Shown here: piece by piece, positions 36,541-44,558 of the stretch
Layout of the letters: each line of letters opens with the position of its first letter
How positions within the stretch are numbered: position 1 is the stretch's first letter
DNA from: Halorubrum laminariae
GTDB taxonomy: Archaea > Halobacteriota > Halobacteria > Halobacteriales > Haloferacaceae
Reading direction: 5' to 3'
Length of the DNA stretch: 64,000 nt
NCBI RefSeq assembly: GCF_024494655.1
Contig: NZ_JANHDL010000003.1
Coordinates: 1-64,000 of the forward strand
Notes under the pieces: model-generated
The model's database searches: none
The model's input: only the letters and a program-made list of their open reading frames with translations
Told to the model about the DNA's origin: nothing
Made by a program: the position numbers and the translations under genes

Positions 36541-36577
36541 ATTCAATATAACTTTTCTTAGAACAATCCAAATTGTT
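36541..36577 (+). promoter_or_regulatory. Promoter and candidate operator of the cbi operon
   Basis: TTCAATATAAC at 36542-36552 is a TATA-like box. A perfect palindrome, AACAAT-CCAA-ATTGTT, is at 36562-36577. Its inner ACAA-N6-TTGT matches the site before cbtB at 11 of 14 positions. Confidence 0.55.
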
Positions 36578-36605
36578 ATTACGCGGGCTTCCTCTCGTGG
36601 AACCG

Positions 36606-37223
36606 ATGCCTCGAACGCCGGCGACACGCCTCCCCCACGACGCGAAGGCGGGCCCCACGAAGCCCGAAATCCGAGCCGTGACCGTCTCGAAGCTGGGTCT
36701 CACTCCCGAGGACCACTTCGTCGAGGTCGGCTCGTGCACCGGCGCGGTGACGATCGAAGCGGCCCGACGGGCGGGCCGCGTCACCGCGCTCGAACGCAAG
36801 CCCGATCGGCTGGCGGTGACTCGCAAGAACCTCGCGGCGAACGCACCGCTCGACGCGGACGTGGAGCTCGTCGAGGCTGAGGCCCCGGCGGGCCTGCCCG
36901 ACGACGCGGACGCGTTGTTTCTCGGCGGGTCGCGCAACTTCGAGGCGGTGCTCGATCGCGCGGTCGAGACGGGCGTCGAGCGAGTCGTGATGAACGTCTC
37001 GCGGCTCGAAGTCGCCGGCCGCGCGGTCGAGGCGTTCCGCGACCGGGGCATCCTCGACGAGGTCGTCCAGTTCCAAGCGAGCCACGGCTACGAGCTCGCC
37101 GGCGCGACGAGCTTCGACTCGGACAACCCGGTGTACGTGATCACGGGCGGCGTCGGGGACGGATCGGGCGACGGTGAGGACGAAGCGGAGTCGGCTGTGA
37201 GTGCCGAGCGAGGTGACGCGTGA
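36606..37223 (+). CDS. cbiT: Cobalt-precorrin-6B C15-methyltransferase (decarboxylating)
   Basis: The 205-residue SAM-dependent enzyme methylates C15 and decarboxylates the ring C acetate. It starts TRLPHDAKAGPTKPEIRA (a CbiT hallmark). The SAM loop is VEVGSCTGAVTIEA and the second motif LFLGGSRNF. It is the first gene of the corrin operon. Its partner CbiE is encoded separately at 53173, although they are fused in many bacteria. The acidic tail overlaps the cbiL start. Confidence 0.94.
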   Translation: MPRTPATRLPHDAKAGPTKPEIRAVTVSKLGLTPEDHFVEVGSCTGAVTIEAARRAGRVTALERKPDRLAVTRKNLAANAPLDADVELVEAEAPAGLPDDADALFLGGSRNFEAVLDRAVETGVERVVMNVSRLEVAGRAVEAFRDRGILDEVVQFQASHGYELAGATSFDSDNPVYVITGGVGDGSGDGEDEAESAVSAERGDA

Positions 37224-37918
37224 CGCTGTACGGCGTCGGCCTCGGTCCCGGGGCCGCAGACCTGATCACGCTCCGCGGGAAGCGCGTTCTAGAGTCGGCC
37301 GAGACGGTTTACACGCCCGGGCGGCTCTCGCGCTCCGTCGCTGTCGAGCACGTCCCCGAGTCGCGGCTCGGCGACCTCGACTTCCCGATGACGCGCGACC
37401 CCGACGAACTCCGGCGGGCGTGGCGGGAGGCGGCCGACGCGGTCGCGCCCGTCGCCCGCGACGGCGACGCGGCGTTCGTCACCCTCGGCGACCCGAACGT
37501 GTACTCGACGTTCGGTCACCTTCGGCGGACGCTCGACGCGTTCCACCCGGACGTGGGCGTCGAAACGGTGCCCGGCGTTTCGGCGACGACCGCGTTCACG
37601 ACCGCGCTCGGTGTCGAGGTGGAGGCCGGCGCGGGGTTGGCGCTCCGCGAGGCCGACGCTGGGAAGTCCCCGACGGGGCCCGACCGGATGGTGCTGTTCA
37701 AGGTGACCGACGCGCCCGCTACCCACGAGGGGCTCGTCGCGGCCGGCTACGAGGTCACGTACGGCCGCCGGCTGTTCATGGAGCAGGGCGAGACGGTCGT
37801 GACCGATGACCCCGAAGCGATCGCCGACCGCGACTACTACACGCTGGCGTACGCTCGCCGCCCCGACGCCGGCGCGGAGCCGGCAACCGCGGCCTTCGCG
37901 GAGGTGGGAGACGCGTGA
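37220..37918 (+). CDS. cbiL: Cobalt-factor II C20-methyltransferase
   Basis: The 232-residue class III SAM methyltransferase adds the C20 methyl to cobalt-factor II. It has the SAM glycine motif GVGLGPGAADLITLRG and LGDPNVYSTFGH, then VPGVSATTAF. It starts at GTG with a 4-nt overlap at each end, part of a tightly coupled operon. Length matches the family. Confidence 0.94.
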   Translation: MTLYGVGLGPGAADLITLRGKRVLESAETVYTPGRLSRSVAVEHVPESRLGDLDFPMTRDPDELRRAWREAADAVAPVARDGDAAFVTLGDPNVYSTFGHLRRTLDAFHPDVGVETVPGVSATTAFTTALGVEVEAGAGLALREADAGKSPTGPDRMVLFKVTDAPATHEGLVAAGYEVTYGRRLFMEQGETVVTDDPEAIADRDYYTLAYARRPDAGAEPATAAFAEVGDA

Positions 37919-38841
37919 GCGACCCGCTCCCCGATCCTGCGACCGAAGTGCTGGACGACCGCGAGGGAATCCCGTTCGTTGGCGCGGGCCCCGGCGACCC
38001 CGGTCTGCTGACGGTTCGCGGGCGGGCACTCCTCGAAGACGCGGACCTCGTGGTCCACGCGGGGTCGCTCGTGAACAGCGAGCTACTGGACGCCTTCTGT
38101 GACCACGCCGAACAGGTGAACTCCGTCGGGAAGGATCTCGAAGAGCTGATCCCGCTGATGCGGGATGCCCACGAGGCCGGGCGGACCGTCGTCCGACTCC
38201 ACTCGGGCGACCCGTCGATTTACGGGGCCGCCTTAGAGCAGATGGACGCGCTGGAGTCGGAGGGTATCTCCACGTACTTCGTCTCGGGCGTCACCGCGGC
38301 GTTCGCCGCGAGCGCGACGCTCGACACCCAGTTGACGCTCAACGAGGTGTCGAACCACGTCGCGTTCACCCGGCCGCAGGGGAAGACCCTGAGTCCGGAG
38401 GAGGACCACATCTCGGAGTTCGTCCGGATGGGCGACGTGACGACCTGCATCTACCTCGGCACCCACGCGGTCCGCGAGACGATGGACCGACTGCTCGACG
38501 ACGGTGTTGACCCGGACACGCCCGTCGCGGTGGTGTACCACGCCTCGTGGCCCGATGAGGACGTGATTCGCGGGACCGTCGGCGACGTCGCCGACGCGGT
38601 CGAAGAGGCGGGCTACCGTGCCTCCGCGCTCGTGGTTATCGGCGAGGCGGTCACCGGCGGGGGGTACGAGCGCTCCTACCTCTACGGCGATTGGGCCAAC
38701 GGCGGGGGTGAGGTCGAGCAGGAGCGAGACCTCGATTCGAGCGGGGAGCGAAGCGACCCGCGAGACGAGAGTGGTGGAACCGACGAGAGTGAAATCGACG
38801 CGGACGACGCCGACGCGATCACGGAGGGATCTACGCAATGA
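37915..38841 (+). CDS. cbiF: Cobalt-precorrin-4 C11-methyltransferase
   Basis: The 308-residue enzyme methylates C11. Motifs are FVGAGPGDPGLLTVRG, LHSGDPSIYGA, VSGVTAAFAASA and VVYHASWPDE. The last 45 residues are an acidic, Ser-rich tail not needed for catalysis. It starts at GTG and overlaps cbiL and cbiG by 4 nt. Confidence 0.95.
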   Translation: MSDPLPDPATEVLDDREGIPFVGAGPGDPGLLTVRGRALLEDADLVVHAGSLVNSELLDAFCDHAEQVNSVGKDLEELIPLMRDAHEAGRTVVRLHSGDPSIYGAALEQMDALESEGISTYFVSGVTAAFAASATLDTQLTLNEVSNHVAFTRPQGKTLSPEEDHISEFVRMGDVTTCIYLGTHAVRETMDRLLDDGVDPDTPVAVVYHASWPDEDVIRGTVGDVADAVEEAGYRASALVVIGEAVTGGGYERSYLYGDWANGGGEVEQERDLDSSGERSDPRDESGGTDESEIDADDADAITEGSTQ

Positions 38842-39953
38842 GCACGGACGACGACACGACGGACGCATCGACAGAGGACACGGCGGGAACGACGCCCGAT
38901 TCGGATGCATCGACCGATTCGGACGCGTCAACCGATTCGGATGCATCGACCGATTCGGACGCGTCAACCGATTCGGACGCGGGCTCCGAATCCTCGGATT
39001 CGGGCGGCGGGCACTGTTCCACGGCGGACTCCGACGGCGAGGTGGCGGAGACGCTCGGGATCGTCACCTTCGAGCGCAAGCGCGACACCGCAGAAGAGAT
39101 CAAGGCGGGACTCGCCGACCGATACGAGCGTATCGACCTGCTGGAGTACCACGGTGACGTGTTCGCCGAGCACTGGGGCGAGTACGACGTGTTCTGCGGG
39201 CTGATGGCGAGCGGCATCGCGATGCGCAAGACTGCGCCGCTTCTCGACGACAAGTGGGACGACCCCGCGGTGGTCGTCGTCGACGAGGAACTGACGTGGG
39301 CGATCCCGCTCACGGGCGGCCACCACGGCGCGAATCAGGTCGCAGACGACCTCGCCTCGCTGGGTGCGGTGCCGGCGATGACGACGGCCAGCGAGGCCGC
39401 GGGCAAGCAGGGCGTCGAGGAGCGCGCGAAGGCACTCGACGCCCACGTGGTCAACGGCGACTCGACGGTCGCGACGAACCTCGCCGTCCTCGACGACGAC
39501 CTCGGTCCCGTCAAGCGGCTCGACGGCCCCCAAGCGGTGCTCGTCGGCGACGACGTGACGGTGCTCAAACGGAACAGCGACCCCGAGGCGGGCGTCGTCC
39601 TCGGCACGGGGAGCGTCTCGGGCGCGACGGCCGAACAGTTCGAGGCGGCGTGGGCGCGCGCGCTCGACGCGGCCGACGCCGACTGGGACGACGTGGAGTT
39701 CGTCGCCACGGGCACCCGAAAAGAAGAGGAACCGGGGCTGCTTGAGGCGGCCGAAGGACGCGGTCTCGGCGTCGTGAGCTTCGAGAAGTCGACGCTTGAG
39801 GAGCACGAGGGGCCGACCCCGTCGCGCTCGAAGGAGCTGATCGGCTGGCCCGGCATCTCGGAGGCGTCTGCCATCGCCGGCGGCCGCGACCACGAGCTCG
39901 TCGTCGAGAAGATCGGCTACGAGGACAGCGTCACGGTGGCGGTGGGGCGATGA
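38838..39953 (+). CDS. cbiG: Cobalt-precorrin-5A hydrolase
   Basis: The 371-residue enzyme opens the lactone of cobalt-precorrin-5A and releases acetaldehyde. The N-terminal domain is at about residues 70-200 (CGLMASGIAMRKTAP, ITGGHHGAN-type LTGGHHGANQVA) and the C-terminal CbiG_C domain carries FVATGTRKEEE. Before them is a 70-residue low-complexity leader made of DSDAST repeats, encoded by 18-bp tandem DNA repeats, with a single GGGHCS patch. Confidence 0.93.
   Translation: MSTDDDTTDASTEDTAGTTPDSDASTDSDASTDSDASTDSDASTDSDAGSESSDSGGGHCSTADSDGEVAETLGIVTFERKRDTAEEIKAGLADRYERIDLLEYHGDVFAEHWGEYDVFCGLMASGIAMRKTAPLLDDKWDDPAVVVVDEELTWAIPLTGGHHGANQVADDLASLGAVPAMTTASEAAGKQGVEERAKALDAHVVNGDSTVATNLAVLDDDLGPVKRLDGPQAVLVGDDVTVLKRNSDPEAGVVLGTGSVSGATAEQFEAAWARALDAADADWDDVEFVATGTRKEEEPGLLEAAEGRGLGVVSFEKSTLEEHEGPTPSRSKELIGWPGISEASAIAGGRDHELVVEKIGYEDSVTVAVGR
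38898..38969 (+). repeat. 18/36-bp tandem repeats inside cbiG
   Basis: Two exact 36-bp copies (38898-38933 and 38934-38969), each made of two 18-bp variants, encode DSDAST units. A further partial unit follows. It is a coding microsatellite likely to vary in length between strains. Confidence 0.9.
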
Positions 39954-40846
39954 GCGGCGACACGAAAACAGAAAAAACGGGAGCGCTCCCCGCCTCGCGC
40001 GCGGCCGCCGGCGGCGACCCCGACGGCGACGCGCCGGACGGGTACGGAACGCTGTACGTCGTCGGCATCGGCCCGGGGCTCCCCGAGGAGATGACCGACC
40101 GCGCCCGACGCGTGATCGAGACGGCCGACTGCGTGATCGCCTCGAACTTGTATCAGGCGTTCCTCCGCGACGACGGGACGCTCCCGCCGGAGGAGGCGCA
40201 AGCGGACAGTGAGCAGGAACTGGTCCGCTCATCGATGGGCAAACAGGTCGAACTCGCACGAGAGGCGTTTGAGCGCGTCCGCGACGGCCAGGACGTGGCG
40301 CACGTCTCCGGCGGCGACCCGAACGTGTACGGGAAATCTGATCTGCTGTTCACGATGGCCGAGGCGGAGGAAGCGACAGACGTGCCGATCGAGATCGTCC
40401 CGGGCGTCACCGCGGCGCTCGGCGGCGCGGCGACGCTCGGCGCGCCGCTGTCGAACGACTTCTGTACGATATCGCTGTCGGACAAGTGGCGCGGCTGGGC
40501 GGAGATCGAAGAGAAGCTGCGGGCGGCGGCCGTCGCCGAGTTCGTCGTCGTCCTGTACAACTGCTGGCGCGACTACGAGCGGGCTATCGCGGTGCTTCGC
40601 GAGGAGCGCCACGACGACGTGCCCGTCGCCATCGTCAACGACGCTGGCCGGGGCGACGCCGGCCGCAACGTCGACGGCGAGACGTACACCCTGACGACGC
40701 TCGGCGAGGCGACCGAACACGACGAGGAGGTCGGCGGCATGGGCACGTCGATCCTCGTCGGCACCCACGAGACCGAGGTCTGGGAGAACGACTACCGCGA
40801 CTACCTCGTCACGCCCCGCGGTGGGCGCGACGTGGACGACTTCTGA
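39950..40846 (+). CDS. cbiH: Cobalt-factor III C17-methyltransferase, first copy
   Basis: The 298-residue methyltransferase contracts the ring by methylating C17. It has YVVGIGPGLPEEMTDRA, HVSGGDPNVYGK, VPGVTAALGGAA and VVVLYNCWRDYERA. The second copy of this family follows at 40869. The first copy has a polar, Lys-containing leader and no Cys-rich extension. It overlaps cbiG by 4 nt. Confidence 0.93.
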   Translation: MSGDTKTEKTGALPASRAAAGGDPDGDAPDGYGTLYVVGIGPGLPEEMTDRARRVIETADCVIASNLYQAFLRDDGTLPPEEAQADSEQELVRSSMGKQVELAREAFERVRDGQDVAHVSGGDPNVYGKSDLLFTMAEAEEATDVPIEIVPGVTAALGGAATLGAPLSNDFCTISLSDKWRGWAEIEEKLRAAAVAEFVVVLYNCWRDYERAIAVLREERHDDVPVAIVNDAGRGDAGRNVDGETYTLTTLGEATEHDEEVGGMGTSILVGTHETEVWENDYRDYLVTPRGGRDVDDF

Positions 40847-40868: not shown

Positions 40869-41894
40869 ATGAGCGACGACACCACCTGCGGCGGTTCGAC
40901 GGCGACGGATAGCACGGACACCGAGACGAGCGCCTGCGGTGCGACGACCGACGGCGGGACGACAGCCGAGACGGCGGAGGCAGCGTCCGCTGCCGGTTCC
41001 TCGGCCTGCGGCGCGTCGTCTGACTCTCCGGACGACGACACGGACAGCGCGAGCGCCTGCGGCGGGTCGAAGAGCGCGACCGACGAGAAGGTCGAGGCCA
41101 CCGTCGACGACTTCGACGCCGACCCCGGTCGGCTCGTCGCCGTCGGGCTCGGCCCCGGACACGCCGAGGGCATGACCGCGCGGGCGAAGGCGGCGCTTTC
41201 GGACGCCGAACACATCGTCGGCTACACCACCTACATTGACCTCATCCCGGACGAGATCACGGAGGGGGCCGACGAGCTGTACGACACGCCGATGTGCGGT
41301 GAGGTTTCGCGGACTGAGGAGGCGATCGACCGCGCGCTCGCCGGCAACGACGTGGCGATCGTCGGCTCCGGCGACCCCAACGTGTACGCGCTGTCGGGGC
41401 TCGCGCTGGAGATACTGGAGTCGAAGGGCGCGACCGCCTCGATGGTCGACTTCGAGGTCGTCCCCGGCGTCCCCGCGGCGCAGTCCTGCGGGGCCCGGCT
41501 CGGCGCGCCCCTCGTCAACGACTCCGTGTCGGTGTCCCTGTCGGATCACCTCACGCCCATGGAGGAGATCGAGTCGCGCCTCCACGCCGTCGCCGGCGAG
41601 GGGTTCACGATCACCATCTACAACCCGTGGAGCCGCAAGCGCCGAGAGAACTGGGAGACGGCCTGTGCAATCTTGCGCGAGCACCGCGCGGACGACACGC
41701 CCGTCGGGATCGTCCACGGAGCCGGCCGCGACGACGAGGCGACGGAGATCACGACGCTCGGCGAGTTGGAGTCGTACGGCGAGACCGATCTCGTGGACAT
41801 GACGACGACCGTCGTCGTCGGTAACGAGGACACGTACGTGTGGGACGACCGGATGGTCACCCCCCGCGGCTACGAGAGCAAGTACGACTACTGA
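40869..41894 (+). CDS. cbiH: Cobalt-factor III C17-methyltransferase, second copy with Cys-rich leader
   Basis: The 341-residue protein has the same methyltransferase core (AVGLGPGHAEGMTARA, GSGDPNVYAL, VPGVPAAQSCGA, TIYNPWSRKR). It is preceded by about 85 residues of low complexity containing four Cys (C7, C23, C47, C64), each in a CG(G/A) context. The core has an extra Cys pair, CGAR. Bacterial CbiH60 carries an Fe-S cluster, so this leader may bind one. Two CbiH paralogues side by side are known in haloarchaea. Confidence 0.92.
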   Translation: MSDDTTCGGSTATDSTDTETSACGATTDGGTTAETAEAASAAGSSACGASSDSPDDDTDSASACGGSKSATDEKVEATVDDFDADPGRLVAVGLGPGHAEGMTARAKAALSDAEHIVGYTTYIDLIPDEITEGADELYDTPMCGEVSRTEEAIDRALAGNDVAIVGSGDPNVYALSGLALEILESKGATASMVDFEVVPGVPAAQSCGARLGAPLVNDSVSVSLSDHLTPMEEIESRLHAVAGEGFTITIYNPWSRKRRENWETACAILREHRADDTPVGIVHGAGRDDEATEITTLGELESYGETDLVDMTTTVVVGNEDTYVWDDRMVTPRGYESKYDY

Positions 41895-41895
41895 G

Positions 41896-42198
41896 ATGTG
41901 CGAGCCAGCCAGCTACACGGTGACGGTTGACCGCAACGCCTGCGACGGCGTGTTCGCGTGCCTCGTCCGAGATCCCCGGTTCGTGGAGGACGACGAGGGG
42001 CTCGCGAGCCTCGACGCCGACGCCGCCGAGACGCTGACGCGAACGGCCGCGGGCGTGACGGCGACGTTCGCCGACGACCGGATCGAAGAGGCGAAACAGG
42101 CGGCCGCGGCGTGTCCGCTCGACGCGATCGCTGTTGCGTCCGCGGAGGAGGTCGCGTCCGCGGAGGAGGTCGCGTCCGCGGAGGAGGGAGACGAATGA
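41896..42198 (+). CDS. Single-cluster ferredoxin of the cobalamin operon
   Basis: The 100-residue protein has Cys at 2, 16, 22 and 73, the last in AACPLDAI. The C-x5-C...CP spacing suggests a 3Fe-4S or single 4Fe-4S ferredoxin. It starts one nucleotide after the cbiH stop and ends in three VASAEE units encoded by an 18-bp tandem repeat (42133-42186). It probably gives electrons to a reductive step of corrin synthesis. Confidence 0.85.
   Translation: MCEPASYTVTVDRNACDGVFACLVRDPRFVEDDEGLASLDADAAETLTRTAAGVTATFADDRIEEAKQAAAACPLDAIAVASAEEVASAEEVASAEEGDE
42133..42186 (+). repeat. Three 18-bp tandem repeats at the 3' end of the ferredoxin gene
   Basis: GTCGCGTCCGCGGAGGAG occurs at 42151-42168 and 42169-42186. 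A copy with one substitution is at 42133-42150. They encode VASAEE. Confidence 0.9.
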
Positions 42199-42959
42199 GC
42201 GGGCGCGCGGACTGGACCGACGCCCCGTTGCCGACGGTCCCGGACGACCTCCTCGCCGCGACGCCGCAGGCGGCGTACCTCTGGGGTCGCGTGGCCGCAG
42301 ACGGCGCGGTCGACGGCGACGAGGTGCGGGTCCGGGTCGGCGGCGCGCCGGCGGCCGAGCGGGTCGCGGCGCTGTTCGGCGCGCGCGACGTTGACCGCGC
42401 TCGCGAGGTGACCGAGCGCGAGTACGCCCACGACACCGACGTGACCCGCACGAGCGACGAGTACGTCGTCGCGGTCGAGACGCCCGCGGCCCGCCGCGCA
42501 GCCGCCGCGTTCGGGCTTCCGACCGGCGGTGCCGCGTCCGAGGGAGTCGCCGGCGGCTATCGCTTTTCGGCGCTTGACGACCACCGCCGACAGCTCCTCC
42601 GCGGGCTCGTCGAGGGCTGCGGCACGGTGTGTTATAAGTCGGACCCGAACGCGGTGGGCATCTCGGTCGTCCACGACGACGAAGCGCTGCTCGCGACGGT
42701 TCGAGACCACCTCGACGCCACACCGGTCGACGCCCCCTACGGAGACCTGAACGAGTCGTCGTCGGGCGGATACTGGTTCGGTGTCGCAGACGATGCCGGG
42801 CCCGTCCTCGGCGAGTGGCTGTACGAGGGGAGCGCGGAGTCCGGCCTGTTCGCCCCCCAGCGACGCAGCAAGACCCGAAAGAGCATCGAGCGCGTCCGCG
42901 AGGCGGCGGGCGCAGACGACGAGGAAGGGAGTCAGACCGGCGAGGGGGAGCGCGCGTGA
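42195..42959 (+). CDS. Cobalamin-cluster protein with LAGLIDADG-like fold signature
   Basis: The 254-residue protein is annotated in relatives only as a cobalamin biosynthesis protein. I see two motifs resembling LAGLIDADG: LWGRVAADGA near residues 29-38 and LLRGLVEGCGTV near 134-145. The first keeps the acidic residue of the motif, D36; the second has Cys (C142) where the motif acid would be. Around each, the strand-helix pattern is compatible with an alpha-beta-beta unit, as in WhiA or homing endonucleases. This suggests a co-opted, probably non-cleaving nucleic-acid-binding protein. It overlaps both neighbours by 4 nt, so it is an integral operon member. Confidence 0.7.
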   Translation: MSGRADWTDAPLPTVPDDLLAATPQAAYLWGRVAADGAVDGDEVRVRVGGAPAAERVAALFGARDVDRAREVTEREYAHDTDVTRTSDEYVVAVETPAARRAAAAFGLPTGGAASEGVAGGYRFSALDDHRRQLLRGLVEGCGTVCYKSDPNAVGISVVHDDEALLATVRDHLDATPVDAPYGDLNESSSGGYWFGVADDAGPVLGEWLYEGSAESGLFAPQRRSKTRKSIERVREAAGADDEEGSQTGEGERA

Positions 42960-44185
42960 GCAGCGACGCCGCCCCGACGCCAGCCTCGCTTTCCGACGAG
43001 GCGGTGTTACTCGTCGGGCACGGCTCCCGCCGCGAGAAGTCGAACGAGCAGGTCCGGACGCTCGCGGCCGATCTCGAATCGCGGCTGGGGGTCCCGGTCG
43101 ACGCCGCGTTCCTCGAACTCGCGTCGCCGGCCATCGACGACGCGATCGCGGGCTTGGCGGGGACCGTCTCTCGCGTCTCGGTCGTCCATCTCTCGCTTTT
43201 CGCCGCGAGCCACGTCAAAAACGACGTGCCGCTCGCCGTGAAGCGCGCCCGGGCCGACCATCCCGACTTGGAGATCCGGAACGGCTCGCACCTCGGCGTG
43301 CATCCCGCGCTGCTCGACCTGCTCGACGACCGCGCCGCGGCCGTCGAGCGGGAGTTGGGCGTCGACCGCGCCGACGACGAGGTCGTCGTCGTGCTGTGTG
43401 CCCGCGGCTCGTCGGACCCCGACGCCAATGCCGACGTGCACAAGCTTGCACGGCTGCTGTACGAGGGCCGCGAGTTCGCCGACGCGCAGGCGACGTTCAT
43501 CGGCGTCACCGACCCGACGCTCGACGAGACGCTCCACCGCGTCGCGCGCGGCCGGCCTGACGCGGTCGTCGTGCTCCCATACATGCTCGGCGACGGCGTG
43601 CTTACCGGGCGGATCAAAGGGGGAGCCGAGGCGTTCGACGCGGAGTACCCCTACGTCGACGCGGCTCCCGGCGAGCCGCTCGGGACCGACCCGCGGTTGC
43701 TCGATGTCCTCTCGGACCGCTGGCAGGAGGCCCGGACGGGCAGCGTCGAGATGTCCTGTGACACCTGCAAGTACAAGGTCGAACTCGACGGCTACGAGGC
43801 CGACGAGGGCGGCGCGCGAGCCATGCTGCGGGCGCTGACCCACAGCGCGACCCACGCCGACCGCGAGTCGGTCGACGACGACCCGCACGCCCACGACGCG
43901 CCCGCTAACCACGTCGCGGTCTGCACGAACCAGACCTGTGCGGCCGCCGGATCGCCGGCGGTGCTGGAGCGACTTCGACAGGCCGTCCGGGACTCCGACG
44001 CCTGCGACGCGCGCGTCACGCGGACCTCCTGTCTCGACCAGTGCGGCGATGGCCCCATGGTGGCCGTCTACCCCGACGGTGTCTGGTACGGCGGCGTCGA
44101 TGAGGCTGACGCGGACCGCATCGTCTCCTCGCACCTCGACCGCGAGCGCATCGTCTCCGACCTCGTCCACGACACGTTACAATAG
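42956..44185 (+). CDS. cbiX: Sirohydrochlorin cobaltochelatase fused to a 2Fe-2S domain
   Basis: The 409-residue protein inserts Co2+ into sirohydrochlorin. The first CbiX half has VLLVGHGSR and LSLFAASHVKNDVP; the second starts VVVLCARGSSDPDANADV, without the His. After it come CDTCKYKVELD and a His-rich linker (DDDPHAHDAPANH). A thioredoxin-like 2Fe-2S domain closes the chain with CTNQTC and SCLDQCGDG. The fusion resembles the free ferredoxin at 36073. It starts at GTG, overlapping the previous gene by 4 nt. Confidence 0.93.
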   Translation: MSSDAAPTPASLSDEAVLLVGHGSRREKSNEQVRTLAADLESRLGVPVDAAFLELASPAIDDAIAGLAGTVSRVSVVHLSLFAASHVKNDVPLAVKRARADHPDLEIRNGSHLGVHPALLDLLDDRAAAVERELGVDRADDEVVVVLCARGSSDPDANADVHKLARLLYEGREFADAQATFIGVTDPTLDETLHRVARGRPDAVVVLPYMLGDGVLTGRIKGGAEAFDAEYPYVDAAPGEPLGTDPRLLDVLSDRWQEARTGSVEMSCDTCKYKVELDGYEADEGGARAMLRALTHSATHADRESVDDDPHAHDAPANHVAVCTNQTCAAAGSPAVLERLRQAVRDSDACDARVTRTSCLDQCGDGPMVAVYPDGVWYGGVDEADADRIVSSHLDRERIVSDLVHDTLQ

Positions 44186-44186
44186 C

Positions 44187-44558
44187 ATGAGCTGTCACGA
44201 ACTCGAAGCCCTACGACTCGGCCTGATGAACGTCCTCGGCACCGACGACCGCGCCGCGCGCGAACACGCCGAGAAGGAACTGGACGGCGAGTTGTCGGGT
44301 CCCATCGAGGGGCTCGCGACCGCCGAGACGCTCGACGAACTCCGTCGCCACCTCGACGCCGCGCTCGTCGACCTCGAGGAGGAGGTCGCGACGCTCGCCG
44401 CCGACGACCCCGAGGCTGACTACGTCCGCGGCCGGCTCGTCGCCGTCCGTGACGCCGAGCGGAGCCTCGCCCGCCTTGCGACCCACGGCGACGACTTCCT
44501 CGACGGGCTCGGTGAGACTCACCACGACCTCCACGATGCCTTCCCCGTCGAAGAGTGA
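44187..44558 (+). CDS. DUF3209 family protein
   Basis: The 123-residue helical acidic protein starts MSCHELEALRLGLMNVLG. DUF3209 is nearly always found in haloarchaeal cobalamin clusters next to cbiX; no activity is known. The ATG is one base after the cbiX stop codon. Conserved Cys3 and His4 and a C-terminal pair of His (ETHHDLHD) might bind metal. Confidence 0.88.
   Translation: MSCHELEALRLGLMNVLGTDDRAAREHAEKELDGELSGPIEGLATAETLDELRRHLDAALVDLEEEVATLAADDPEADYVRGRLVAVRDAERSLARLATHGDDFLDGLGETHHDLHDAFPVEE

Follow-up and report, generated by a model that had tools for sequence, protein, structure and literature searches.

In the middle of the cobalamin (cbi) operon of Halorubrum laminariae lies a gene whose 254-residue product is predicted to adopt a LAGLIDADG fold, has lost the acid pair of a homing endonuclease, and travels with the operon across haloarchaea. 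The window, i.e., the whole stretch of DNA analysed here, is 64,000 nucleotides long. We tentatively read this protein as a non-cutting accessory of a cobalt-insertion module, a reading that we put at somewhat less than an even chance and that we prefer over a regulator or a gap-filling enzyme. The operon and its relevant features are as follows:

36544..36579, + strand, conserved two-box element before cbiT, belonging to the operon (upstream-sequence comparison)
36606..37223, + strand, cbiT, which opens the operon (tblastn against annotated cbiT loci)
37220..40846, + strand, cbiL, cbiF, cbiG and cbiH1 (order as in annotated clusters; CbiG by Pfam)
40869..41894, + strand, cbiH2/cobJ, start codon uncertain (annotated-cluster comparison)
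41896..42198, + strand, Fer4_15 single-cluster 4Fe-4S ferredoxin, directly upstream of the LAGLIDADG gene with a 4-nt overlap (Pfam)
42195..42959, + strand, nuclease-dead LAGLIDADG-fold protein, 254 aa (translation, predicted fold, family alignment)
42279..42308, + strand, first LAGLIDADG-type motif LWGRVAADGA, residues 29-38, with Asp36 variable across the family
42594..42623, + strand, second LAGLIDADG-type motif LLRGLVEGCG, residues 134-143, with Asp replaced by Cys142 (Ala/Ser elsewhere), followed by the invariant Cys146
42956..44185, + strand, CbiX cobaltochelatase with a C-terminal thioredoxin-like 2Fe-2S domain, directly downstream with a 4-nt overlap (Pfam)
44187..44558, + strand, DUF3209 helical protein with invariant Cys/His/Glu (Pfam)

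The resulting gene order, cbiT-L-F-G-H1-H2-ferredoxin-LAGLIDADG gene-cbiX-DUF3209, is the same in annotated haloarchaeal clusters, including those of Halorubrum lacusprofundi pHLAC01 and Halobaculum magnesiiphilum, in which the LAGLIDADG gene is labelled either 'hypothetical protein' or 'cobalamin biosynthesis protein'. An earlier, sequence-only reading of this DNA had placed the gene at 42195-42959, and translation confirmed its coordinates, start and stop as well as both motifs. The 4-nt overlaps that it had described with both neighbours were likewise borne out, the gene sharing ATGA with the ferredoxin gene upstream and GTGA with cbiX downstream. The order CbiH2-ferredoxin-LAGLIDADG-CbiX-DUF3209, together with these ATGA and GTGA overlaps, is kept in nearly all loci. 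In Haloferax volcanii the same slot, between the ferredoxin HVO_B0056 and CbiX1 (HVO_B0054), is occupied by HVO_B0055 (PMC8305020), which the window gene matches by gene order. HVO_B0055 was one of four genes in the cobalamin cluster without an assigned function in 2021 (PMC8305020). A literature search of limited coverage returned no link of LAGLIDADG to the haloarchaeal cobalamin cluster and no report of the fold of HVO_B0055, and the fold of the HVO_B0055-type protein is an addition made here.

An AlphaFold2 model built from the family alignment of 39 sequences (mean pLDDT 87, pTM 0.86) has the two-repeat alpha-beta-beta-alpha-beta-beta-alpha topology of the LAGLIDADG superfamily, in which the motif helices lie between the two repeats. 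The fold spans residues 12-245 of 254. Foldseek returned 31 matches at E <= 0.001, each of them to a LAGLIDADG-fold protein. The best match in the structural aligner was I-Tsp061I (Z 15.1, rmsd 3.6, 191 aligned), and I-DmoI (Z 14.4, rmsd 3.1, 168 aligned) and two WhiA structures, 8dy7 (Z 13.7, rmsd 3.8, 190 aligned) and 3hyi (Z 12.6, rmsd 3.2, 171 aligned), were also matched; for comparison, Z 7-8 is typical of models that lack a clear match. The predicted structure is unambiguously a full two-repeat LAGLIDADG fold. Structure prediction was the check that the sequence-only reading had proposed for its LAGLIDADG assignment, and a model devoid of such topology, the outcome that it had named against itself, did not appear. 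No named family reached significance in sequence searches alone (Pfam, NCBIfam, and the PDB with both phmmer and a profile). The Pfam family matched by most members is LAGLIDADG_3, which 31 of the 39 hit at E <= 1 (the best at 1.8e-4), and the window protein scores 13.3 bits against its gathering cut-off of 22.5 (PF14528), so that the evidence for the fold is structural. PDB matches to Tektin-3 and to a portal protein were at chance level and were discarded.

Residues were counted in 39 representatives of the family, each below 80% identity. The acidic pair of an active homing endonuclease, one acid ending each motif helix, is present in none of them. The sequence-only reading was correct that the window protein retains the Asp of motif 1, but this is no feature of the family: 25 representatives have D at the position, seven have S, four have G and three have A. 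The Cys that it had noticed in place of the Asp of motif 2 proved to be general, being C in 37 representatives, A in one and S in one, and acidic in none. Eleven polar residues are invariant in all 39 (H79, R136, E140, C146, S157, S189, S190, D199, Y210, R223 and K226). R136, E140 and the glycines are residues of the kind expected of the motif helices; more distinctive of this family, it seems, are H79, C146, S157 and S189-S190. Secondary structure would place the conserved residues on the concave sheet, or saddle. The dN/dS against close relatives is 0.13-0.29, which indicates that the protein is maintained by purifying selection.

Of 392 Halobacteriales genomes, 193 gave homologues in a single-sequence search. 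When 246 genomes spanning the phylum were searched with a profile, nothing convincing was returned outside Halobacteriales; one match (G540, E 0.03) was rejected, the protein being unrelated and its cysteines ferredoxin-thioredoxin-reductase-like. Searches of viral contigs and phages gave no relatives, and among the plasmids searched the carriers were haloarchaeal megaplasmids only. In a sample of 80 genomes, the LAGLIDADG protein and CbiG are each present in 35, of which they have 34 in common (34/36; Fisher p 2.7e-20, a statistic that ignores relatedness). The two genomes that break the pattern are G271 and G111, in the latter of which the gene is at the end of a contig. DUF3209 exceeds its cut-off in the identical 35 of the 80 genomes as the LAGLIDADG protein. 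The protein is thus inherited near-strictly with the cbi cluster, and the view of the sequence-only reading that it belongs to the pathway was upheld: it is a true part of the cobalamin gene set.

Two genomes of one genus, G271 (L086) and G319 (L096), carry a compact cluster, cbiT-L-F-G-H1-H2-X, from which the ferredoxin, LAGLIDADG and DUF3209 genes are all absent. Their CbiX matches also end short of the 2Fe-2S domain, and the CbiX of G271 has a long His-rich tail at its end. That these four features are missing jointly suggests that they form one functional module. The two clusters constitute a second type of haloarchaeal cbi cluster.

A detached copy, 29% identical, is found in G011 away from the cbi cluster (L087 5466-7454), where it is flanked by two cation-efflux (CDF) transporter genes and adjoined by a rhodanese gene; the CbiX-DUF3209 pair of this genome is on a different contig. 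The contig of the detached copy also encodes a 693-residue dCTP-deaminase-like frame (L087 9362-11443) that appears to hold an intein, with the LAGLIDADG-type motifs GFYIAEGY and LLEGLIDGDG. DUF3209 neighbours CbiX in the loci seen, including those of Thermus and Leptospira, which have no LAGLIDADG gene there. From Thermus to haloarchaea its Cys3, Glu5, His27, Glu31, Glu64, Glu91, His112 and His116 are invariant, and it looks like a metal-binding bundle; its solved relative 2EHW aligns at Z 12.3 (rmsd 2.9, 114 aligned).

The fold, the lost acid pair, the selection, the co-inheritance and the gene coupling are computed results. Beyond them, we infer a role for the protein in a cobalt-insertion module formed by CbiX (including its 2Fe-2S domain), the Fer4_15 ferredoxin and DUF3209. 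A LAGLIDADG protein of the homing-endonuclease type would have been domesticated in haloarchaea, would have lost cutting, and would have become a fixed accessory of the cobalamin pathway that acts by binding instead of catalysis, possibly by serving as a scaffold or in delivery. On its concave sheet and at the former metal site it may bind a partner protein, a corrinoid intermediate or a metal, with the invariant Cys146, the near-invariant Cys142 and the invariant His79, Ser157 and Ser189-Ser190 as candidate site residues. A partner of this kind is favoured because the gene lies mid-operon and is lost together with the Fe-S and DUF3209 genes, and because a Cys is invariant and the pI is low (family median 4.5, as acidic as the neighbouring enzymes). 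The co-occurrence of the LAGLIDADG protein, CbiG and DUF3209 and the conserved coupling to ferredoxin and CbiX speak for the accessory role, as do the joint absence of module parts in G271 and G319 and the placement of the G011 copy beside cation-efflux genes. Against it stand the CbiX-DUF3209 pair of Thermus and Leptospira, which does without a LAGLIDADG gene, the G011 copy, which does not adjoin CbiX-DUF3209, and the absence of Cys142 from 2 of the 39 representatives. Every structurally characterised LAGLIDADG relative known to us binds nucleic acid, so any other kind of role would be unprecedented for the fold.

The strongest alternative, though on balance an unlikely one, is a WhiA-like non-cutting regulator that would bind cbi DNA or RNA through its saddle-shaped sheet, perhaps together with the neighbouring 4Fe-4S protein. 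Known members of the fold bind nucleic acid, WhiA is structurally close, and the predicted hairpins carry conserved basic residues (R75, R85 and K/R148). WhiA acts with the Fe-S protein WhiB, which offers a possible parallel to the ferredoxin next to the window gene. Rfam detected no cobalamin riboswitch in the region and nothing near its gathering score. Work on Halobacterium has inferred that the cob/cbi genes are under a second regulator, which it did not identify (PMC3794607). However, the protein lacks an HTH domain, the acidity of the family equals that of the neighbouring enzymes, and a gene that sits mid-operon and is lost alongside Fe-S and DUF3209 genes would be an odd pattern for a regulator.

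The sequence-only reading had suggested 36541-36605 as a target for DNA binding. A real conserved element is located there, but it also occurs in clusters that lack the LAGLIDADG protein (L086, L096). Some 30 nt before the cbiT ATG, its box 2 forms a perfect inverted repeat (AACAAT-CCAA-ATTGTT, 36562-36577), and a CAA-N6-TTGT box is found in 43 of 43 distinct haloarchaeal cbiT upstream sequences. Across 34 protein-bearing clusters the two boxes read CAA-N6-RNTTK and CAANCMNAATTGTTWT, lie 20 bp apart and ~30 nt before the cbiT ATG, and together have 14 exceptionless positions. The element overlaps the promoter position, and we know of no earlier description of it. In G091, where an insertion splits the operon, a second copy then precedes cbiH1. 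The G271 and G319 clusters still carry the element, less exactly; its presence does not track that of the LAGLIDADG protein, and binding of the element by this protein is not supported.

A search for the element elsewhere covered 18 genomes, and loci encoding a wHTH-DUF7839 protein, which has a MarR-like HTH (Pfam), were examined at L164-L171 (G076, G151, G361, G004 and others). In G076, G151, G361 and G004 the wHTH-DUF7839 gene is divergent from cbiT across the conserved element. A cbiT-type site also precedes this gene in Halorubrum genomes that have neither CbiG nor the LAGLIDADG protein, and in the window's own genome the gene is found at G000:C12:608530-609333 with a cbiT-type site in front. 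Since the element outlasts the LAGLIDADG protein and precedes the wHTH-DUF7839 gene, the wHTH protein is the better candidate binder. In G091, G051, G211, G126 and G271 the only DUF7839 copy is more distant and has no such site, so that the wHTH protein is a candidate and not a proven regulator of cbi genes. It could be the second cob/cbi regulator inferred in Halobacterium (PMC3794607). The persistence of the element in clusters without the LAGLIDADG protein, and its recurrence at the wHTH-DUF7839 gene even in genomes without that protein, weaken the reading of the LAGLIDADG protein as a regulator.

A more specific proposal, to which we give a low probability, is that the former Mg2+ site has been rebuilt (Asp to Cys142, together with the invariant Cys146), so that the protein would sense or deliver cobalt or a corrin intermediate to CbiX, or would bind nucleic acid in a cobalt- or corrin-gated way, as the partner of an Fe-S protein. 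The two representatives in which Cys142 is missing speak against an essential two-Cys metal site. If true, sensing or delivery of cobalt or a corrin intermediate by a rebuilt site would be a use of LAGLIDADG outside nucleic-acid biology.

It is improbable that the protein replaces the missing CbiD (C1-methyltransferase) or CbiJ (precorrin-6A reductase). Both enzymes are absent from all 80 sampled genomes, with matches obtained in control genomes, while CbiG is present in 35; PF01888 and PF02571 (CbiD, CbiJ) had no match in the LAGLIDADG protein or anywhere in the genome. The CbiD and CbiJ steps are the two published gaps in the haloarchaeal pathway (PMC8305020; also PMC3403918, PMC6719526), the four unassigned cluster genes have been proposed as candidates to fill them (PMC8305020, PMC3403918), and the near-strict co-occurrence of the LAGLIDADG protein with the pathway is consistent with such a role. 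However, G271 lacks CbiD, CbiJ and the LAGLIDADG protein and keeps the rest of the cluster, and clusters such as those of G271 and G319 indicate that the protein is no obligatory replacement for either enzyme, if these strains make B12. No SAM- or nucleotide-binding family was matched in the protein, and the only enzymatic precedent that we know of for the fold is that of nucleases. CbiH1 (HVO_B0058) is also the better published candidate for the methylation step (PMC8305020).

That the gene is a selfish homing endonuclease, still active or recently inactivated and in the operon by chance, would fit its fold and the motif 1 Asp kept in the window copy, but is disfavoured to the point of being scarcely credible, as the second catalytic position is acidic in none of the 39 representatives, the gene is coupled to identical neighbours in nearly all loci, purifying selection acts on it, and phage and viral searches gave no match.

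A confident predicted fold for one of the four unassigned cluster genes opens its product to specific tests. It also brings to light a LAGLIDADG family that is nuclease-dead and linked to a metabolic pathway. G271 and G319 are natural knock-outs and G011 holds a detached copy, which provides ready comparisons. Separately, cbi regulation gains a directly testable explanation in the cbiT element and the linked wHTH-DUF7839 protein.

Amongst known systems, the window protein shares the two-repeat LAGLIDADG fold over nearly its whole chain with I-Tsp061I and I-DmoI, which are archaeal monomeric LAGLIDADG homing endonucleases. Unlike these, it has no catalytic acid pair, does not lie in an intron or intein, and is fixed in a biosynthetic operon. 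The domesticated LAGLIDADG cases known to us are WhiA and HO. The N-terminal LAGLIDADG domain of WhiA (DUF199) is matched by the window protein, and in both the fold is kept without nuclease use. The sequence-only reading had compared the protein with WhiA as a nuclease fold turned to binding; this holds for a LAGLIDADG fold without cutting residues, but the likeness is limited to the fold because the C-terminal HTH domain of WhiA is absent (no Pfam or NCBIfam HTH match). WhiA is a protein of Gram-positive bacteria with a transcriptional role, whereas the window protein is haloarchaeal and any role of it in transcription is putative.
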